Virus record (IMG/VR): IMGVR_UViG_3300046559_000883
Span: 1 to 58,523 of that record
Length of the DNA: 58,523 nucleotides
Source: a virus
Reading direction: 5' to 3' (one strand)
The stretch's first letter is position 1. The number at the start of each line of letters is the position of its first letter. Below the pieces are notes generated by a model that was not told where the DNA came from, ran no database searches, and worked only from the letters and a program-made list of their open reading frames with translations. Below, piece by piece: positions 31,664 to 49,433 of this stretch. Both the position numbers and the translations under genes were made by a program.

Positions 31664-32157
31664 GCGCGACTCCTTGCCAACATGCCCAGCGCGACGGCCA
31701 ACGCCTCGCCTTCAGAGCTGAGGCCGTAGCCGATGAACGGGCGCCCATGGTCATCCTCGAGCGGCTGCACGCAAAGGAGTCCGCGCTCAAACAGTGTCGC
31801 GCACGTCTCTCGTCGCGGACCGACAGCGCGCAGGTACAGTGGGCCAGCGTCGTCGTTCAAGTGGTGGAGATCGGCAATCGCTTGCAGCGTGGCGCGCTCA
31901 CGTTTCGTCAGAGGCGGCGGGGCGGGCGGAGCGAGTACATGGCCCCCGAGCAGCTCCCGCAGGGCTTCCGGGTGGCGGCGGAGGATGGCGGTGAGCTTCT
32001 CTCGGAGAGCGGCGGCAACTGCCTGACTGTCCACACCCGACTGGATCGCGGGCAAGGTGTCGACCACGGCGCTTCCGGCGATAGAGATGTAGAAATCGCC
32101 GGTGAAGCTCGGCTCAACCTTGACGAGCTCGGCGAGCAGCTTGTCCAAATCACTCAT
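31660..32157 (-). CDS. Unknown protein with helix-turn-helix-like segment
   Basis: 165 aa. Near residue 84, L-T-K-R-E-R-A-T-L-Q-A-I-A-D-L-H-H begins a winged-helix-like region with C-A-T-L-F-E-R-G-L-L and S-S-E-G-E-A-L-A. Such phage proteins often regulate or bind DNA. Overlaps the upstream gene by eight bases. Confidence 0.6.
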   Translation of the reverse strand: MSDLDKLLAELVKVEPSFTGDFYISIAGSAVVDTLPAIQSGVDSQAVAAALREKLTAILRRHPEALRELLGGHVLAPPAPPPLTKRERATLQAIADLHHLNDDAGPLYLRAVGPRRETCATLFERGLLCVQPLEDDHGRPFIGYGLSSEGEALAVALGMLARSRA

Positions 32158-33220
32158 GCGTAGCGCCTCTGCGTTCTAGATGTCGCCACGTGTTGCCACG
32201 CCGAATGTTCTTGATGCAGGTGAAGCCGACGCCATACCGACGCGCCAGGTCGGTGATCCGTTCGGCCGAACCGATGATCTCAATGACTTGAGCCTCCGTC
32301 AGCTTGGTGTTGGCATTCCGGACGCCAGCATTTAGTCCGGACAGTCGTCCTTTGCGTTGAGCATCCTTTAGGTTATCGGTATTCGTACCCCAGAAGAGGT
32401 GGGCTGGGTTGACGCAGGATGGGTTGTCGCAACGGTGGCATGCCTGCCGCTCCGGCGGTGGCCTTTCACCGGTTGCGATCGCTAAAGACACGCGATGGGC
32501 GAGCGCCATCCGGCCATCAATGCGGAACTTCCCGTATCCAGAGTGCTCCTTGAAACCAGTCCAGATCCAGCAATGGCCCAATTCTGAACAGTGCTCCGGT
32601 ACTGCACCATCCTTGTTGACCTTCAACCAAAAGCGATCGATTGCCACACGATCGGTGCGTAGGTCGGTAAGTGTCACGGGCTTGGGCGCAAGCGTCGGAG
32701 TCCACCGTCGGCCATTCGCGAGACCTTCAGCGACCATCTTCCGGGCCTGATCGTGGTTCAGCGTCGCGACGACATCAGCGCACCACATAGGTGCGTAGAC
32801 GTGTTTCGGGCAAATCGGTGTCTTATCTTCACGACGACGAGATGGGCGATCCTGCGAACCACCGCGCGTCGTGTAGACATGAACCCATCCAGCCGCTCGA
32901 AGGCTCACACCAAGCTCCGTTTCGAGGATCGAGGTGAAGATCGAGCGAAAGCCAAGTTCACGCGCGACGCGAGACGCTTTCGAGTACAGGAACGAGCAGA
33001 CGTTGGGCGTACCAGTCGTGCACAGGCGCGACACCTCGACATGTGCGTACTGGTCGATCAGCCGCGCGCGCGGCCTGCCGACGGTGCAGACACCAGCGAG
33101 TGCGCCACCGGTTTCACAGCCGAACGCGAAGCGGTAGCCGGTCAGCGTTTTGTTGTGCCGATGGTGCCGCAGGAATGCGCGCGCCTGATCGCGGGTGAGG
33201 GGACAGGCAACAAGACTCAC
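32150..33220 (-). CDS. XF1762-like domain fused to HNH endonuclease and HTH
   Basis: 356 aa from GTG at 33220. Residues 1-150 match XF1762-type proteins (A-F-L-R-H-H-R-H-N-K, G-R-P-R-A-R, E-V-S-R-L-C-T-T-G-T-P-N, G-V-S-L-R-A-A-G-W). Residues 190-300 are a phage HNH nuclease: F-W-L-K-V, C-W-I-W-T-G, R-I-D-G-R-M-A-L-A-H-R-V-S, C-H-R-C-D-N-P-S-C-V-N-P-A-H-L-F. Residues 305-350 are a helix-turn-helix (T-K-L-T-E-A-Q-V, I-T-D-L-A-R-R-Y-G-V). XF1762 proteins are often stand-alone, so this looks like a homing-type nuclease joined to a host gene. Confidence 0.78.
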   Translation of the reverse strand: MSLVACPLTRDQARAFLRHHRHNKTLTGYRFAFGCETGGALAGVCTVGRPRARLIDQYAHVEVSRLCTTGTPNVCSFLYSKASRVARELGFRSIFTSILETELGVSLRAAGWVHVYTTRGGSQDRPSRRREDKTPICPKHVYAPMWCADVVATLNHDQARKMVAEGLANGRRWTPTLAPKPVTLTDLRTDRVAIDRFWLKVNKDGAVPEHCSELGHCWIWTGFKEHSGYGKFRIDGRMALAHRVSLAIATGERPPPERQACHRCDNPSCVNPAHLFWGTNTDNLKDAQRKGRLSGLNAGVRNANTKLTEAQVIEIIGSAERITDLARRYGVGFTCIKNIRRGNTWRHLERRGATHE

Positions 33221-34695: not shown

Positions 34696-35201
34696 GACGC
34701 CCTCCCGGTCAGGCGGGCGTGAGCGGCGCGGCGAAGAATCGCCTCGGGCGCGAGCCCGCGCTTCAGACGGCGGGCGATGACGCTGTGGTGCAACCCCGTG
34801 CGGCGCGCCCACTCTCGGATCGGAAGCGTCTCACCCTCGAACGTGATCGCGACCGTCTTGCGGGTGTTCGCTTGCTGCTCGTGCCGCGTTGCCCACCCGC
34901 AGTTGTTGGCGGAGTAGGGCCCGTCGTTGTCCCGACGGTCGAGCGTAAGGCCCGGCGCGTATCCGGGCAGCACGTCGACCAGGAAGTTTGCGAAGACGAG
35001 CCAGGGCTCGTCGACAGCGATGCCTCGGCCGCCATACCGCGCGAAGGCAGGGTCGCTCGGCGAAGTGCAGCGGGCGACCATCTTCCGCCAAACGAAGTAG
35101 AGACGACGGCGAATCGGAGGCGGGATGGTGCCAATTCCTCGAGCATGTTCAGGCATGCCGAAGTGTGGTTCCGAATAAGACGGATGCAACGCTTTTCTCA
35201 T
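34692..35201 (-). CDS. Probable homing-type HNH/His-Me nuclease with HTH
   Basis: 169 aa, ATG at 35201 overlapping the integrase stop. Pattern Y-F-V-W-R-K-M-V-A-R-C, F-A-R-Y-G-G-R-G-I-A-V, F-A-N-F-L-V-D-V-L-P-G-Y, L-D-R-R-D-N-D-G-P-Y-S-A-N-N-C-G-W-A-T is the phage family of small HNH-like nucleases often called homing endonucleases. A helix-turn-helix (I-R-E-W-A-R-R-T-G-L-H-H-S-V-I) ends it. Lies just after the integrase gene. Confidence 0.76.
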   Translation of the reverse strand: MRKALHPSYSEPHFGMPEHARGIGTIPPPIRRRLYFVWRKMVARCTSPSDPAFARYGGRGIAVDEPWLVFANFLVDVLPGYAPGLTLDRRDNDGPYSANNCGWATRHEQQANTRKTVAITFEGETLPIREWARRTGLHHSVIARRLKRGLAPEAILRRAAHARLTGRAS

Positions 35202-36664
35202 CCTTTCTTCCACTTAAGCGAGAGCTTGCCGGCGCCGTCGATCGTTGCCTTCGAGAGGTGCATGCGGAGCACCTCGCGCTTCTCCTCGACCGTCATGCCG
35301 CCCCAGCTCTTCGCGATGGCGCGCAGGGCCCTGAGATGCTCGGGGCCGAAGGCGTGCGACGCGTCGGCCTGCGCTTGCTCGTGCACTGCGCGCTCGCGTT
35401 CCAACCGGTCGAGCCGCTGGCCGATGTCCTCGAGCTTCTCCTTCGCCTCGTTCCTGGCGATGACGCCTTCGGCGATGGCGTCGACCACGTTCTTCTGGAG
35501 CCGCACGAGCCGCGTCTTCCTCGCCTCGAACGTGAGGGCCATGTCGGACTTCGGGGCCCCCTTCGTCGGTGATGCGAGAAGGTGAATTAGTCGGTTGAGG
35601 TGCTCGACAGCGAGCTCCGATGCGCGCTCGTCGATCTCGCGATAGCGCGCGATGGGTCCCGTGCACTTCGGCGTCCTCTCGCGGCGGCTCTCCGTGCGGT
35701 TGCGGCAGAGATACCAGCCGCCGTGCTTCACGCTCGCCTTGGGACCCGGGTCGTGGGCGGCGAGGGTCGCGCCGCAGACGCCGCAGCGGACGATGCCGCG
35801 CAGGAGAAAGTTCACGTTGCGGGCCGTCGCGCTGTTCGGCCGACCGGACATCTTGCGACGCTCAAGGGCGAGCTGGGCACGACGCCAGGTGGACGGGTCG
35901 ACGAGCGGCGGCCAGCGCTTGATCCACTGCTCGCCCGGCTTCGCCGGCTCGTTCTTCGAGGCGCGCGGCCGCATCTCGCCGAGCATCGTGCGGCTGCGGA
36001 TCTTGCGAGCGATGGCCGCGTGGTCAAGACCGCCGACGCCGGGGAACTTCTCCCGCAGCGCGTCCGAGATTTCGCGCAGCGACTCGCCCGCCACGCACCG
36101 TGCGAACATCTCGTGCACGATGTGCTCGCGCTCGGGATCCTTCACCAGCGACCGCGCCTTGCGGTCCGCCTTGTACCCGAACGGCACGTCGCCCTCGACG
36201 AAGTTACCCATGGCGCGGAGCCTCCGTCGGTTGCCGACCGTGCGCTCCTTGATGCGCGCGTGCTCGAGCTCGGCCGTACTCGCCATGATCGACGCCGCCC
36301 ACTTGCCCTCGGGCGTGGACGGGTCGAAGCGCTCGCCAATCGAAAAGAAGCGCGCCCCCGCTGCGAGGATGCGTTCCGTCGATTGGAGATAGAAGAGCGT
36401 GTGCCGTGACCATCGATCCTGTTTCGTGCAGAGCACCAAGTCTCCCTCGCGGACATCGCGAAGGAGGCGCGCCATCTCTAGGCGCTTTTCAAGTTTCTCC
36501 GCGCCGCCTCCCTCGACTTCGACGTAGACGATCGGCGCGGGGTAGCCGTTGGCCGAGCAGAAGCGGGCGAACTCCTCTTGCTGCGCGTCGAGGCTCGTGC
36601 CTCGCTCTTCCTGGGCGTTGGAGCTGACGCGGGCGTAGGCGAGGACTCGGGTGGGCTTTTGCAT
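35198..36664 (-). CDS. Large serine integrase
   Basis: 488 aa, ATG at 36664. Catalytic domain: V-L-A-Y-A-R-V-S-S with Ser14 as nucleophile, then C-T-K-Q-D-R-W-S-R and E-R-T-V-G-N-R-R-R-L. A recombinase domain follows (about 150-280, with V-P-F-G-Y-K-A-D). A zinc ribbon at about 285-335 has I-V-R-C-G-V-C-G and a later C-T-G-P. A coiled-coil motif at about 370-430 has L-V-R-L-Q-K-N-V-V-D. It integrates and (with a directionality factor) excises the phage at attP/attB. The gene is tightly embedded in the operon, so attP must lie in or near coding sequence. Confidence 0.9.
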   Translation of the reverse strand: MQKPTRVLAYARVSSNAQEERGTSLDAQQEEFARFCSANGYPAPIVYVEVEGGGAEKLEKRLEMARLLRDVREGDLVLCTKQDRWSRHTLFYLQSTERILAAGARFFSIGERFDPSTPEGKWAASIMASTAELEHARIKERTVGNRRRLRAMGNFVEGDVPFGYKADRKARSLVKDPEREHIVHEMFARCVAGESLREISDALREKFPGVGGLDHAAIARKIRSRTMLGEMRPRASKNEPAKPGEQWIKRWPPLVDPSTWRRAQLALERRKMSGRPNSATARNVNFLLRGIVRCGVCGATLAAHDPGPKASVKHGGWYLCRNRTESRRERTPKCTGPIARYREIDERASELAVEHLNRLIHLLASPTKGAPKSDMALTFEARKTRLVRLQKNVVDAIAEGVIARNEAKEKLEDIGQRLDRLERERAVHEQAQADASHAFGPEHLRALRAIAKSWGGMTVEEKREVLRMHLSKATIDGAGKLSLKWKKG

Positions 36665-45909: not shown

Positions 45910-46185
45910 CTATCGGCCCGCCGCCTTCGCGAACGCCGCAAGCTCGTCGCGCTCGTCCTGCGACTCCCACGACGCATCCGGCACGTCGCCACCCGACCAA
46001 ATCCTAATCCTTGTCCGCAGCTTCGCCCGTGGCCTGCTGACGCGATTCAGCCAGTCGGACATCGTGGCGTCCGACACCTGGAGCGCCTCCGCCGCGTCGT
46101 GCGCCGAGAAGTCCAGCGCCTTGATGTGTGCGCGAAGTAGATCCGCGCCGGAGTCAGCGGAGGGAACCGGGGCCGTTCGAGCCAT
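45910..46185 (-). CDS. Cro-like helix-turn-helix regulator
   Basis: 91 aa, ATG at 46185. Helix-turn-helix F-S-A-H-D-A-A-E-A-L-Q-V-S-D-A-T-M-S-D-W-L (about residues 22-42), with basic R-V-S-R-P-R-A-K after it. It is first in the leftward operon and divergent from the repressor, the classical cro place. No clear Shine-Dalgarno precedes it; a 15-bp dyad begins three bases upstream of the start, so the message may be leaderless or autoregulated. Confidence 0.72.
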   Translation of the reverse strand: MARTAPVPSADSGADLLRAHIKALDFSAHDAAEALQVSDATMSDWLNRVSRPRAKLRTRIRIWSGGDVPDASWESQDERDELAAFAKAAGR

Positions 46186-46278
46186 GGCAGTTAAGCTAAC
46201 TGAAGCGACACGAAACCGCAAGGGCGAACCCGAAAAAAAGTTAGGTTGCCTAAATTCGGCGCCTTTTACGGTGGCGCC
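46186..46278. promoter_or_regulatory. Repressor-cro intergenic switch with operators
   Basis: The 93-base gap contains CAGTTAAGCTAACTG (46188-46202), a perfect 6+3+6 dyad touching the cro start, and TTAGGTTGCCTAA (46241-46253), a perfect 5+3+5 dyad next to an A-tract (46233-46239). A GGCGCC hairpin (46258-46278) abuts the repressor ATG. Divergent promoters here would be controlled by these sites. Confidence 0.65.
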
Positions 46279-46860
46279 ATGCCGAAGCAAGCCGAGCTGA
46301 CCGTGGGCCGGTACCTACAGCACCTCGCCCTCGAGTGGATGCGGGCGAACGACACCACCGCGAAGGACTTGGCGAAGCGCGTCGGAGTGAGCGGGGCTCA
46401 GATGCATGCCGTCGTGACCTTCGGGCGCGGAGCCGGCCCCAAGACCGTTCGCGGCTTCGCCAAGCTGCTCGGGCTCGAGAAGTGGGACCTTGAGCGCGAC
46501 GCCGAGCAGTGGGAACGTGCGCACCCCGTTCCGCTCGACGGACCCGTCGACCTTGACGAGCTTGGGCCTGCATTCCGCGAGGCGGTCGAGCGCAACCCGA
46601 GCCGCTGGACACACGACGACATTCGAGCCGCGGTCGCTGCGCGTGGGTCGGATGGCTTCGTGAGCATGACGCCCGAAGGCGTCGCCGACTTCATCGACAG
46701 CATCGCGCAGGCGAACAAGCGGGCAACCCGCGAAGCTGCACTCGTTCAAGCGACTCCCCGGGGGCGTGTGCTTGCGCTGCCGCCCAAGTCTGAGCCGGAC
46801 GAAGTGGAAGAGCGGAGGCGGAAGAGCGGGAAGAAGCCCCGCAAGAGCCGGCCCAACTAA
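46279..46860 (+). CDS. CI-like repressor (XRE helix-turn-helix)
   Basis: 193 aa; ATG at 46279, not the earlier ATG at 46246 inside an operator. Helix-turn-helix T-T-A-K-D-L-A-K-R-V-G-V-S-G-A-Q-M-H at about residues 26-43. The middle has helices, and the C-terminus is basic (R-R-R-K-S-G-K-K-P-R-K-S). No LexA-type self-cleavage domain is visible. Divergent from cro; an ImmA/IrrE peptidase lies 774 bases downstream, suggesting removal by proteolysis. Confidence 0.7.
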   Translation: MPKQAELTVGRYLQHLALEWMRANDTTAKDLAKRVGVSGAQMHAVVTFGRGAGPKTVRGFAKLLGLEKWDLERDAEQWERAHPVPLDGPVDLDELGPAFREAVERNPSRWTHDDIRAAVAARGSDGFVSMTPEGVADFIDSIAQANKRATREAALVQATPRGRVLALPPKSEPDEVEERRRKSGKKPRKSRPN

Positions 46861-47498
46861 TCGTGCGCTTGGGTGCCGGCCGCGAACGCGTTTAGAAGCA
46901 CGGCCTGATCAACCTGGAAGCAGGCGCCCGCAATCGGCGAGCACACGGTGCCGTTTTGCTGGTAGCAGGTCGGCACGCTCTTCACGCTGTAGATGTTCGA
47001 CACGCACTGCGTCGCATCGGTCTCGACGTAGTAACGCGGCGCCGCCGTCGCGCCGCATGCCGCCGTCGCGTCGAACGGTGGGATGCGCTGGAACTTCTGG
47101 CTCTGGATGCAGTTGGAGTCAGGGTACGCGTAGTAGAACATGTCCGCTACCCCAACGGTCGGCAGGCATAGGAACGACCCGTCGCTCATGACCTGGAAGT
47201 CGCAGTCTTCCGCCCTCTGCGAGTCGTAGAACGTGCCGAGGTAGTGGCGCGAGCCGTCCGCACCCGTCACGTAATTCGCCTTGAGCCGCGTCCCGCTCTC
47301 GTCGGCGTACGCCTCCGGCATGCCCGCGCCAACGCCTGCGCCCTTGCCGCTGCTCACCTTCGAAGACGACCCAGCGCCGCCGGCTCCGCCGGCTCCGACA
47401 TGGTGAGCGAGATGTTCGGCCGCCCCGCCGCAAGTCGCCACCGCAAGGAACACGGCTACCGAGCCGCCGACCAACTTTGCAACCTCTAGGATTCGCAT
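46857..47498 (-). CDS. Secreted Cys-rich protein, likely lysogenic conversion gene
   Basis: 213 aa. N-terminal signal (L-V-G-G-S-V-A-V-F-L-A-V-A-T-C) followed by a Gly/Ser-rich linker, then a Cys-rich domain: H-Y-L-G-T-F-Y-D-S-Q, C-D-F-Q-V-M-S-D-G-S-F-L-C-L-P, then C-I, C-G, C-V, C-Y, C-S, C-F. I associate this type of domain with Myxococcota surface proteins. Stop overlaps the repressor stop, tail to tail. Probably expressed from the prophage and exported. Confidence 0.68.
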   Translation of the reverse strand: MRILEVAKLVGGSVAVFLAVATCGGAAEHLAHHVGAGGAGGAGSSSKVSSGKGAGVGAGMPEAYADESGTRLKANYVTGADGSRHYLGTFYDSQRAEDCDFQVMSDGSFLCLPTVGVADMFYYAYPDSNCIQSQKFQRIPPFDATAACGATAAPRYYVETDATQCVSNIYSVKSVPTCYQQNGTVCSPIAGACFQVDQAVLLNAFAAGTQAHD

Positions 47499-47634
47499 GT
47501 CGACATGGTAAGCCGCACCGCACGGGCGTCGAGCGGGAACGGGTGAGCAGCGCGCCGGACTTCGCCCGCGCTGTAACGCGCCGCCTCGGACGATTACCCC
47601 TTCCGCCGCAGCCGCAGCGGAGCGATCCTACGAC

Positions 47635-48267
47635 ATGGATCTGGGGGACCTTGAGGCGCTCGCAGTGGACGCGATCGAATCGGTCAATGAAGACCCGGAA
47701 CGCCCGCCGTCGGCGTTCCGGCTGGCTCGTGCGCACCTCGGCGCGGGCTCAGTCGATCGGCCGCGAATGATGGCCGGGCCACCCGCCGTCACGTTCGAGG
47801 TGGCAGGGCAACAGCGCATCGCGATCAAGGCGTCGGTGCCGCTCGAATATGCGCACTTCTATTGCGCGCACGAACTTGGACACGTGCTCCTCGCTCGCGG
47901 TGGCTACCGCGGTCCTCGCGACGAGGAAGAGGTCTTCGCCAACTATCTCGGCGCCGCGTTGCTCATGCCACGCCCGGCGGTGCGCTCGTTCTATCGGGCC
48001 GAGGGCCTTTCGCCGAGGCGGCTCGCGAAGGCCATCGTCTGCACGCAGACTGCGGCAGCGCTCCGCTTCGGCGAGGTACTCCTTTCACCGCTGGCCGTCG
48101 TCGCTCCCGCCAGCGTGCGCGTCCGTGGGCCCGAGGCGTGGGTCTGGCCCGACGAGCGCACCATCCGCCGTTGGGCCGCCGGTCGCCCAGGGCCCGGCGT
48201 CACGAAGGTCAAACTGACCGACCAGAAGCGCGTCGCGCTCATCGGCAGCGACGACGACGCGGCGTAG
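47635..48267 (+). CDS. ImmA/IrrE-family metallopeptidase
   Basis: 210 aa. Zinc-peptidase motif H-E-L-G-H at about residues 79-83 (C-A-H-E-L-G-H-V-L-L) and downstream acid D-E-E-E-V-F-A-N-Y (E-x-x-A-N-Y) near 96-104 as third ligand, typical of ImmA/IrrE. These enzymes cleave phage or ICE repressors to start induction. Located in the immunity region downstream of the repressor; transcribed toward the lipoprotein gene and away from the 46857 gene. Confidence 0.82.
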   Translation: MDLGDLEALAVDAIESVNEDPERPPSAFRLARAHLGAGSVDRPRMMAGPPAVTFEVAGQQRIAIKASVPLEYAHFYCAHELGHVLLARGGYRGPRDEEEVFANYLGAALLMPRPAVRSFYRAEGLSPRRLAKAIVCTQTAAALRFGEVLLSPLAVVAPASVRVRGPEAWVWPDERTIRRWAAGRPGPGVTKVKLTDQKRVALIGSDDDAA

Positions 48268-48996
48268 CTACTTCTCGCCAGGCTGCTCGGCCCAGTCGGT
48301 CGACACGAGGCGGACAATGCGCACGCCGTCGGACGACGGGCTGCGGGTCTTCTCAGGGAACGCGAGCTCGACCATGGCGCGGTGTTCGCGGCCGTCCTTC
48401 GTCAACTCGAAAAGCTTCTGGCCGTCGCCCGTCGTGCGCTCGATGTATCCGGGCAGGTCGTCGTTGTTCGAGTCGCGGACCCGCACGGACAAGTGCGACT
48501 CTTTCGCCCTGGCAAACTCGAAGTTGTAATAGTCGGAGAGCTTAACGCCCACGCGGAACGTGGTCGGTGTCGTGGCGCGTAGCGACTTGAACGCCGCGAT
48601 CGACGTCGGGTTGTACGTGTTCGTGCAACGCCAGTCGACCTTGAAGCCGGCCGTCGTGTTCGTCAGGCAGAACGGCGTATCGCTTTCGTGGACGCTTGCG
48701 CGACAGAGGCCGCCGAGGGCGAGCCCTTCGCATGCCGCGACGTCCGTCGCACTGTGCTTGAAGACGCAGGACGCCTTGCCCTTGTACTTCTCGGCTAGAA
48801 GCGGCGCGTTGCCCGTTGGGTTGACGATGAGCGCCAGCCGGTCCGTGCACTTTGCTGCCGAAAGATAGGCCTCAAGAACCGCGAGGGCCGTGCCGCCCGC
48901 CGCGGGCGTACTCGGAGCGCCGCCGTCGGCGTCGCCAGTGCCCGACTTGCCGCACCCGATCAGCACAAGCGCTACCGCCAACAAGCTCCGCATCAT
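48268..48996 (-). CDS. Lipoprotein, likely lysogenic conversion gene
   Basis: 242 aa, ATG at 48996 with GGAGGT seven bases upstream (a second ATG follows). Signal peptide with lipobox L-I-G-C-G (Cys15), then Gly/Ala/Ser-rich linker. Domain has several Cys (C-T-D, C-V-F, C-E-G, C-R-A, C-L-T, C-T-N). Probably outer-membrane anchored. Stop meets the ImmA/IrrE stop. Function unknown; possible superinfection or cell-surface role. Confidence 0.75.
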   Translation of the reverse strand: MMRSLLAVALVLIGCGKSGTGDADGGAPSTPAAGGTALAVLEAYLSAAKCTDRLALIVNPTGNAPLLAEKYKGKASCVFKHSATDVAACEGLALGGLCRASVHESDTPFCLTNTTAGFKVDWRCTNTYNPTSIAAFKSLRATTPTTFRVGVKLSDYYNFEFARAKESHLSVRVRDSNNDDLPGYIERTTGDGQKLFELTKDGREHRAMVELAFPEKTRSPSSDGVRIVRLVSTDWAEQPGEK

Positions 48997-49082: not shown

Positions 49083-49114
49083 TGCACTTCGGTTCGGTTC
49101 GGTTAACCTATCTG
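49083..49114 (+). promoter_or_regulatory. Early rightward promoter and operator
   Basis: TTGCAC (49083-49088) and ACCTAT (49106-49111) are spaced 17 bases and would start transcription near the ATG at 49119, giving a leaderless message. CGGTTAACCTATCTG (49100-49114) matches the cro operator dyad CAGTTAAGCTAACTG at 12 of 15 bases. TTCGG is repeated three times at 49088-49102. Confidence 0.55.
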
Positions 49115-49118
49115 AACG

Positions 49119-49433
49119 ATGGCAACGCGATTCGAGCCCCTCTTCACCGTCGACCGCGACGGCGACCCCTGCTCCCTCCCGCTCTCCCGCCTGACCGAGG
49201 AAGAGCGCGACCAGCACCTTCGCGGCGAGTACAGCGGCCTCACGGACGAGGCAGCTGCCGAGCTCGCGGCGACCATCACGCCCGACGAGTTTCGTCGACA
49301 CTGCGGGAGCTGGGACGGCAACCTGCTCGCGGCGTACTACCGGCTGCACTCGACGCCGGCGACGGTGGCGATCGTGGCGCTGACCGTGAGCCCCGAGGCG
49401 GCGGCGCTGCTTGCCAGCTTGGAGGCAGCGTGA
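49119..49433 (+). CDS. First gene of rightward operon, unknown
   Basis: 104 aa, ATG at 49119 with no Shine-Dalgarno, possibly leaderless. Sequence: beta start (F-E-P-L-F-T-V-D-R-D-G-D-P), then L-T-E-E-E-R-D-Q-H-L and a helical C-terminus. Not recognised. Confidence 0.65.
   Translation: MATRFEPLFTVDRDGDPCSLPLSRLTEEERDQHLRGEYSGLTDEAAAELAATITPDEFRRHCGSWDGNLLAAYYRLHSTPATVAIVALTVSPEAAALLASLEAA

Follow-up and report, generated by a model that had tools for sequence, protein, structure and literature searches.

Why would a temperate phage carry genes for two exported proteins inside its lysogeny-control region, each on the strand opposite to its neighbors? The question is raised by an IMG/VR virus record (IMGVR_UViG_3300046559_000883), of which positions 1 to 58,523 were analyzed as one stretch of DNA, hereafter the window. 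Its gene content is that of a temperate contractile-tailed phage of 58.5 kb: the tail sheath, capsid, portal, and terminase genes lie on the minus strand, RecE and RecT are encoded on the plus strand, a serine integrase gene occupies 35198-36664, and a ParB-like gene is present. Because relatives of two of its proteins, the Cys-rich exported protein and the ImmA/IrrE-type protein described below, sit in Myxococcota genomes, we infer that the host belongs to this phylum. To our knowledge, phages of the Myxococcota are few and poorly known. Elsewhere in the window (32150-33220, minus strand), residues 6-127 of a 356-aa ORF match a family of Mom-like DNA modification proteins and residues 211-350 match HNH endonucleases, so that a DNA-modification domain and a nuclease are apparently fused. 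A 21-kb contig from another sample, IMGVR_UViG_3300047319_001025, encodes a terminase identical to that of the window, which indicates that this phage or one very close to it occurs elsewhere; judging by its position and length, the contig should not extend to the immunity region.

The original prediction placed a signal-peptide Cys-rich protein and a lipoprotein antisense beside an ImmA/IrrE gene, between the repressor and the early operon. Both coordinates and strands were confirmed. The ImmA protein scores 38.6 bits for Peptidase_M78 (PF06114), whose cut-off is 22, and its HEXXH motif is intact as HELGH; the placement within the lysogeny-control region is borne out by the HTH repressor and Cro genes on one side and the start of the early operon on the other. 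The region is laid out as follows, slots A and B being the positions of the two minus-strand genes and G289 a sister phage introduced below.

45910-46185, minus strand: Cro-like HTH protein leading the leftward operon (phrog_2328 transcriptional repressor, E 5e-4; weak HTH_31 and Phage_CI_repr matches)
46188-46202: candidate operator CAGTTAAGCTAACTG, a perfect palindrome in the cro/repressor intergenic region
46241-46253: candidate operator TTAGGTTGCCTAA, conserved in the sister phage as TTAGGTCGCCTAA
46279-46860, plus strand: HTH repressor-like protein, 193 aa (weak HTH_31 and PHROG repressor matches)
46857-47498, minus strand: slot A, Cys-rich exported protein, putative divergent DUF7481 member, 213 aa, 9 Cys
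47499-47634: divergent intergenic region between the slot A gene and ImmA, kept in the sister phage despite its unrelated slot A gene
47635-48267, plus strand: ImmA/IrrE-type metallopeptidase (PF06114, E 1.1e-9; PADLOC CapP model, 1.9e-10)
48268-48996, minus strand: slot B, predicted lipoprotein, 242 aa, 7 Cys, missing from G289 at that position
49100-49118: candidate operator CGGTTAACCTATCTGAACG just 5′ of the early operon, a TAGGTT/AACCTA element found at the same place in G289
49119-49433, plus strand: gene 1 of the rightward early operon, 104 aa, product without assignment

The two HTH genes stand on either side of a divergent junction at 46186-46278, and the early operon runs from 49119 on the plus strand, with RecE and RecT farther along it. 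Between repressor and early operon, the minus-strand slot genes flank the ImmA/IrrE gene. Third-position GC (GC3) is 0.83 and 0.86 in the two slot ORFs, comparable to phage core genes, and both ORFs are therefore coding. Each overlaps or abuts its sense neighbor stop to stop, with CTAA shared by the repressor and Cys-rich genes and TAGCTA at the junction of the ImmA and lipoprotein genes.

The Cys-rich protein consists of a signal peptide, a Gly/Ser linker, and a beta-rich domain. It matches DUF7481 (PF24297) at E 1.2e-4 with 21.2 bits, under the family cut-off of 26.1, and two of its homologs (L012 and L018) score 45.2 and 38.0 bits, above that cut-off. Judged by these matches, it is a divergent DUF7481 protein, a family that Pfam gives without a function. 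With the Cys-rich protein as the only query, an initial scan of genomes returned no match. A second, alignment-guided scan of bacterial genomes, whose query joined the window protein to three hand-written motif variants to broaden the pattern, returned five loci, all Myxococcota or deltaproteobacterial. Since the variants are not real sequences, every match was re-scored using the window protein alone; the homolog of Minicystis rosea then aligned over residues 3-213 with 34% identity (E 4.8e-15) and that of a Myxococcales MAG over residues 3-192 (E 4.2e-15). The family is patchy across the Myxococcota, with matches to the Cys-rich protein at E 1e-3 in 10 of 284 genomes and DUF7481 above its cut-off in 3 of 141. 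No relatives were detected in 50,697 phage records or, with either a single query or a small alignment, in IMG/VR. The resemblance to host-lineage proteins that had been proposed for this protein therefore stands: the full-length homologs found in Myxococcota chromosomes, together with none found in the viral collections, fit acquisition of the gene from the host lineage. The G288 homolog (L047:10973-12625) has a serine recombinase gene roughly 3 kb away and may itself be on a mobile element.

The homologs are lipoproteins, with a lipobox (MAAC, VAAC, or VVAC) aligned to Cys23 of the window protein. The box of the window protein is VATC, with Thr at −1 in place of Gly, Ala, or Ser, and because this box is atypical its lipidation is uncertain; the protein may be lipid-anchored or soluble in the periplasm. 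An AlphaFold model is all beta (pLDDT 62.6), and fold searches with it returned nothing significant.

The slot B protein has a signal sequence (MMRSLLAVALVLIGC) with a lipobox, LIGC, that agrees with the pattern [LVI][ASTVI][GAS]C. Single-protein scans of viral and phage collections gave no match. Myxococcota matches were weak and partial (best E 6e-4), several of them falling in the N-terminal signal and linker or in broken frames, and were rejected. Hence the viral, phage, and Myxococcota searches yielded no convincing relative of this second protein, for which the suggested search of Myxococcota genomes leaves acquisition from the host unsupported. Its AlphaFold model from the single sequence was useless (pLDDT 33.6).

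Scanning with ImmA identified one close relative, IMGVR_UViG_3300046791_000454 (G289; 81.5 kb), which is collinear with the window over most of the window's length and shares 92% identity in ImmA, 66% in the repressor, and 61% in early operon gene 1. Slot A of G289 encodes an antisense Cys-rich lipoprotein (L002:7181 to about 7843) without recognizable similarity to that of the window. The divergent intergenic region on the ImmA side is conserved between the two phages, and the unrelated slot A genes share an aligned start position. Slot B is vacant in G289, where the early promoter region comes directly after ImmA. One mark of a moron is that a close relative has it missing or replaced at the same place, and here slot A is replaced and slot B empty. 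This comparison of two genomes suggests that slot content is exchangeable between sister phages, and a variable slot is what lysogenic-conversion cargo would show. Right after its repressor gene, G289 also has a gene (L002:6977-7180, plus strand) for a 67-aa protein with a zinc ribbon and a membrane segment, without counterpart in the window and probably cotranscribed with the repressor; its stop abuts that of the antisense lipoprotein gene in TAGCTA, the same junction as between ImmA and the lipoprotein in the window.

Lipoprotein genes were counted with a crude, home-made predictor and a rough gene caller, so that the odds derived from them are rough. The window has two credible lipoproteins in 78 called genes, both in the slots, and G289 has one in 103, the slot A gene; in host chromosomal DNA, 16 of 168 called genes score as lipoproteins with the same predictor. 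A third call in the window, inside RecT, came from an internal start and was dismissed. Under random placement, both window genes would fall in the two slots 1 time in 2926, and the G289 gene in its slot 1 time in 102. Placement by chance is unlikely, and we rated it low given that lipoproteins are confined to the slots in both phages.

The TAGGTT/AACCTA element occurs at the cro/repressor and early-operon intergenic regions of both phages, which account for two of its six occurrences in the window and three of its four in G289, and is absent from the ImmA/slot A intergenic region of both. The candidate operator motif is short and was derived from two phages; its distribution suggests that repressor control extends to the lytic promoters but not to slot A, which would stay open in the lysogen, and expression of slot A in the lysogen is consistent with the lack of a candidate operator in the ImmA/slot A intergenic region. 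A promoter scan found no sigma-70-like promoter, the consensus scan performing no better than on shuffled sequence, and a terminator scan found no more terminators than by chance. Conservation of the divergent ImmA/slot A intergenic region suggests that it contains a promoter.

We propose that the slot genes are exchangeable lysogenic-conversion cargo ("morons") for surface lipoproteins, most likely serving superinfection exclusion, a reading to which we give an even chance. We infer what the operators are, that the slot genes are expressed in the lysogen, that their products reach the outer membrane, and that they act in exclusion, along the following lines. In a lysogen, the repressor would shut both lytic promoters via operators beside Cro and the early operon, and the divergent promoter region of ImmA and slot A, lying outside operator control, would allow ImmA and the exported protein to be made. 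The slot proteins would be exported by the Sec pathway, most likely as outer-membrane lipoproteins, and would alter the lysogen surface. The most likely benefit would be superinfection exclusion, with related or competing phages hindered in adsorption or in DNA entry, from which unrelated versions in sister phages would follow. For myxobacterial lipoproteins, a rule based on the +2 and +7 residues distinguishes outer-membrane sorting from inner-membrane retention (PMC5562445). None of the three slot proteins, two in the window and one in G289, has Lys at +2 or Ala at +7, so that under this rule they would be without inner-membrane retention signals. Domain, PADLOC, and fold searches gave no sequence or fold match of the slot proteins to known exclusion proteins.

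ImmA relatives were found at 41 viral loci, few of them close. At L051, a more distant relative, an antisense membrane protein, weakly DUF6232-like, abuts ImmA in slot B; on a Myxococcota chromosome (L044), an antisense gene for a Cys-rich exported protein comes after a Cro/repressor/ImmA cassette and abuts ImmA; at L045, repressor and ImmA are separated by a gene, on their own strand, for a HIRAN-like protein with a membrane segment; and at L052 a Cys-rich lipoprotein is encoded a few genes away. We regard these loci as parallels, not proof, L044 and L052 being the looser. The L044 cassette (L044:8464-10190) is flanked by genes of housekeeping type (UvrD-like helicase, aquaporin), phage genes not being evident nearby, and is proposed to be a control cassette that stands alone or has been domesticated. 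Three of seven ImmA relatives (L044, L045, and L052) have HELAE in place of HELGH or HELAH, the second zinc-binding His being absent; these homologs may lack activity or rely on Glu instead. Terminase-related prophages in two Myxococcota genomes were too distant for use and had no comparable immunity region. A broader version of the proposal, which we consider rather doubtful, is that temperate phages of the Myxococcota share a dedicated, swappable two-slot lipoprotein cassette within the Cro-repressor-ImmA region; its divergent promoter would be constant and free of operators, its stops would meet tail to tail, and it would be stocked from host lipoprotein families and diversify the lysogen surface against competing phages.

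The slot evidence would serve equally for surface cargo that is expressed in the lysogen and benefits the host through adhesion, social or predatory behavior, or envelope stress, with no superinfection exclusion. The DUF7481-like family occurs in Myxococcota genomes that bear no sign of the window phage, and there it presumably serves something other than phage exclusion. Yet close relatives carry unrelated cargo, as phage-phage competition would predict more readily than a fixed host benefit, and we see such a benefit as possible rather than probable. Neutral or recently captured host DNA, without selected function, would be tolerated in an immunity region that accepts insertions between transcription units: the insertions lie precisely between sense genes with abutting stops, where they would be harmless, and one slot is vacant in the sister phage. 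Moreover, because lipoproteins are common in Myxococcota (the 16 of 168 genes above), accidental acquisition of a host lipoprotein gene would be easy, which counts against the cargo reading. Yet both frames are intact with phage-like GC3, and slot A of G289 holds an unrelated gene of the same kind, an outcome that random capture rarely gives, making capture without function unlikely.

Spanins are small phage lipoproteins, and the start of the slot B gene shares its intergenic region with a candidate operator, as would suit a lytic-cycle envelope factor required for lysis, for example an outer-membrane spanin. The immunity region is far from the structural genes, though, the strand is wrong relative to the early operon, the slot proteins are large for a spanin, and in a near relative they are absent or swapped for an unrelated protein; we judge a lysis role very unlikely. 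Least probable of all is a SitA-like lipoprotein toxin delivered by contact. SitA proteins are lipoproteins on myxobacterial prophage-like (Mx-alpha) elements that are transferred by outer-membrane exchange (PMC5562445), whereas each slot gene stands alone on its strand between opposite genes, with no SitB or SitI partner, and no toxin domain was found in the slot proteins.

Phage-coded surface proteins could matter for phage competition and also for interactions between cells in these bacteria, which are social and share outer membranes. The slot offers a concrete place for seeking exclusion genes in myxobacterial prophages, and the locus gives a first hint of a role for the DUF7481-like family.

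The arrangement can be set beside four known systems. The Cys-rich protein is homologous to exported, chromosomally encoded DUF7481 proteins of Minicystis and other Myxococcota in its domain, and likewise in its signal sequence, its linker, and a C-terminal block; the phage copy differs in its divergence (21.2 versus 26.1 bits) and its location in an immunity region. The likeness to SitA on Mx-alpha lies in being lipoproteins of myxobacterial prophage-like elements and ends at the SitBAI cassette, which the slot genes, with neither partners nor a detected toxin domain, do not form. Ltp of the Streptococcus thermophilus phage TP-J34, the closest precedent in function, is a surface-anchored lipoprotein encoded in the lysogeny module, a moron that is transcribed from the prophage and blocks DNA injection (PMC3952083). 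Location in the lysogeny module is common to Ltp and the slot lipoproteins, but there is no sequence relation, the genes here are antisense singletons, and in a presumed Gram-negative host anchoring would be expected in the outer rather than the cytoplasmic membrane. Neither slot protein matches the Lipoprotein_Ltp repeat (PF07553) at E≤1, and because a further 32 viral records with ImmA yielded no PF07553 gene, the comparison rests on the literature. In Sbash and other actinobacteriophages, variable defense genes expressed in lysogens, including those for membrane proteins, lie near the repressor and an IrrE-like gene and differ among relatives, and the Sbash lysogen expresses the repressor, the IrrE-like gene, and a membrane protein (PMC6426596). 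Genes 30/31 of Sbash are proposed to be RexAB-like and to act by membrane depolarization, whereas the window has single exported proteins. The observation is real and well placed, is strengthened by the differing slot content of the sister phage, and represents a known kind of system in a little-studied host group with few known examples.
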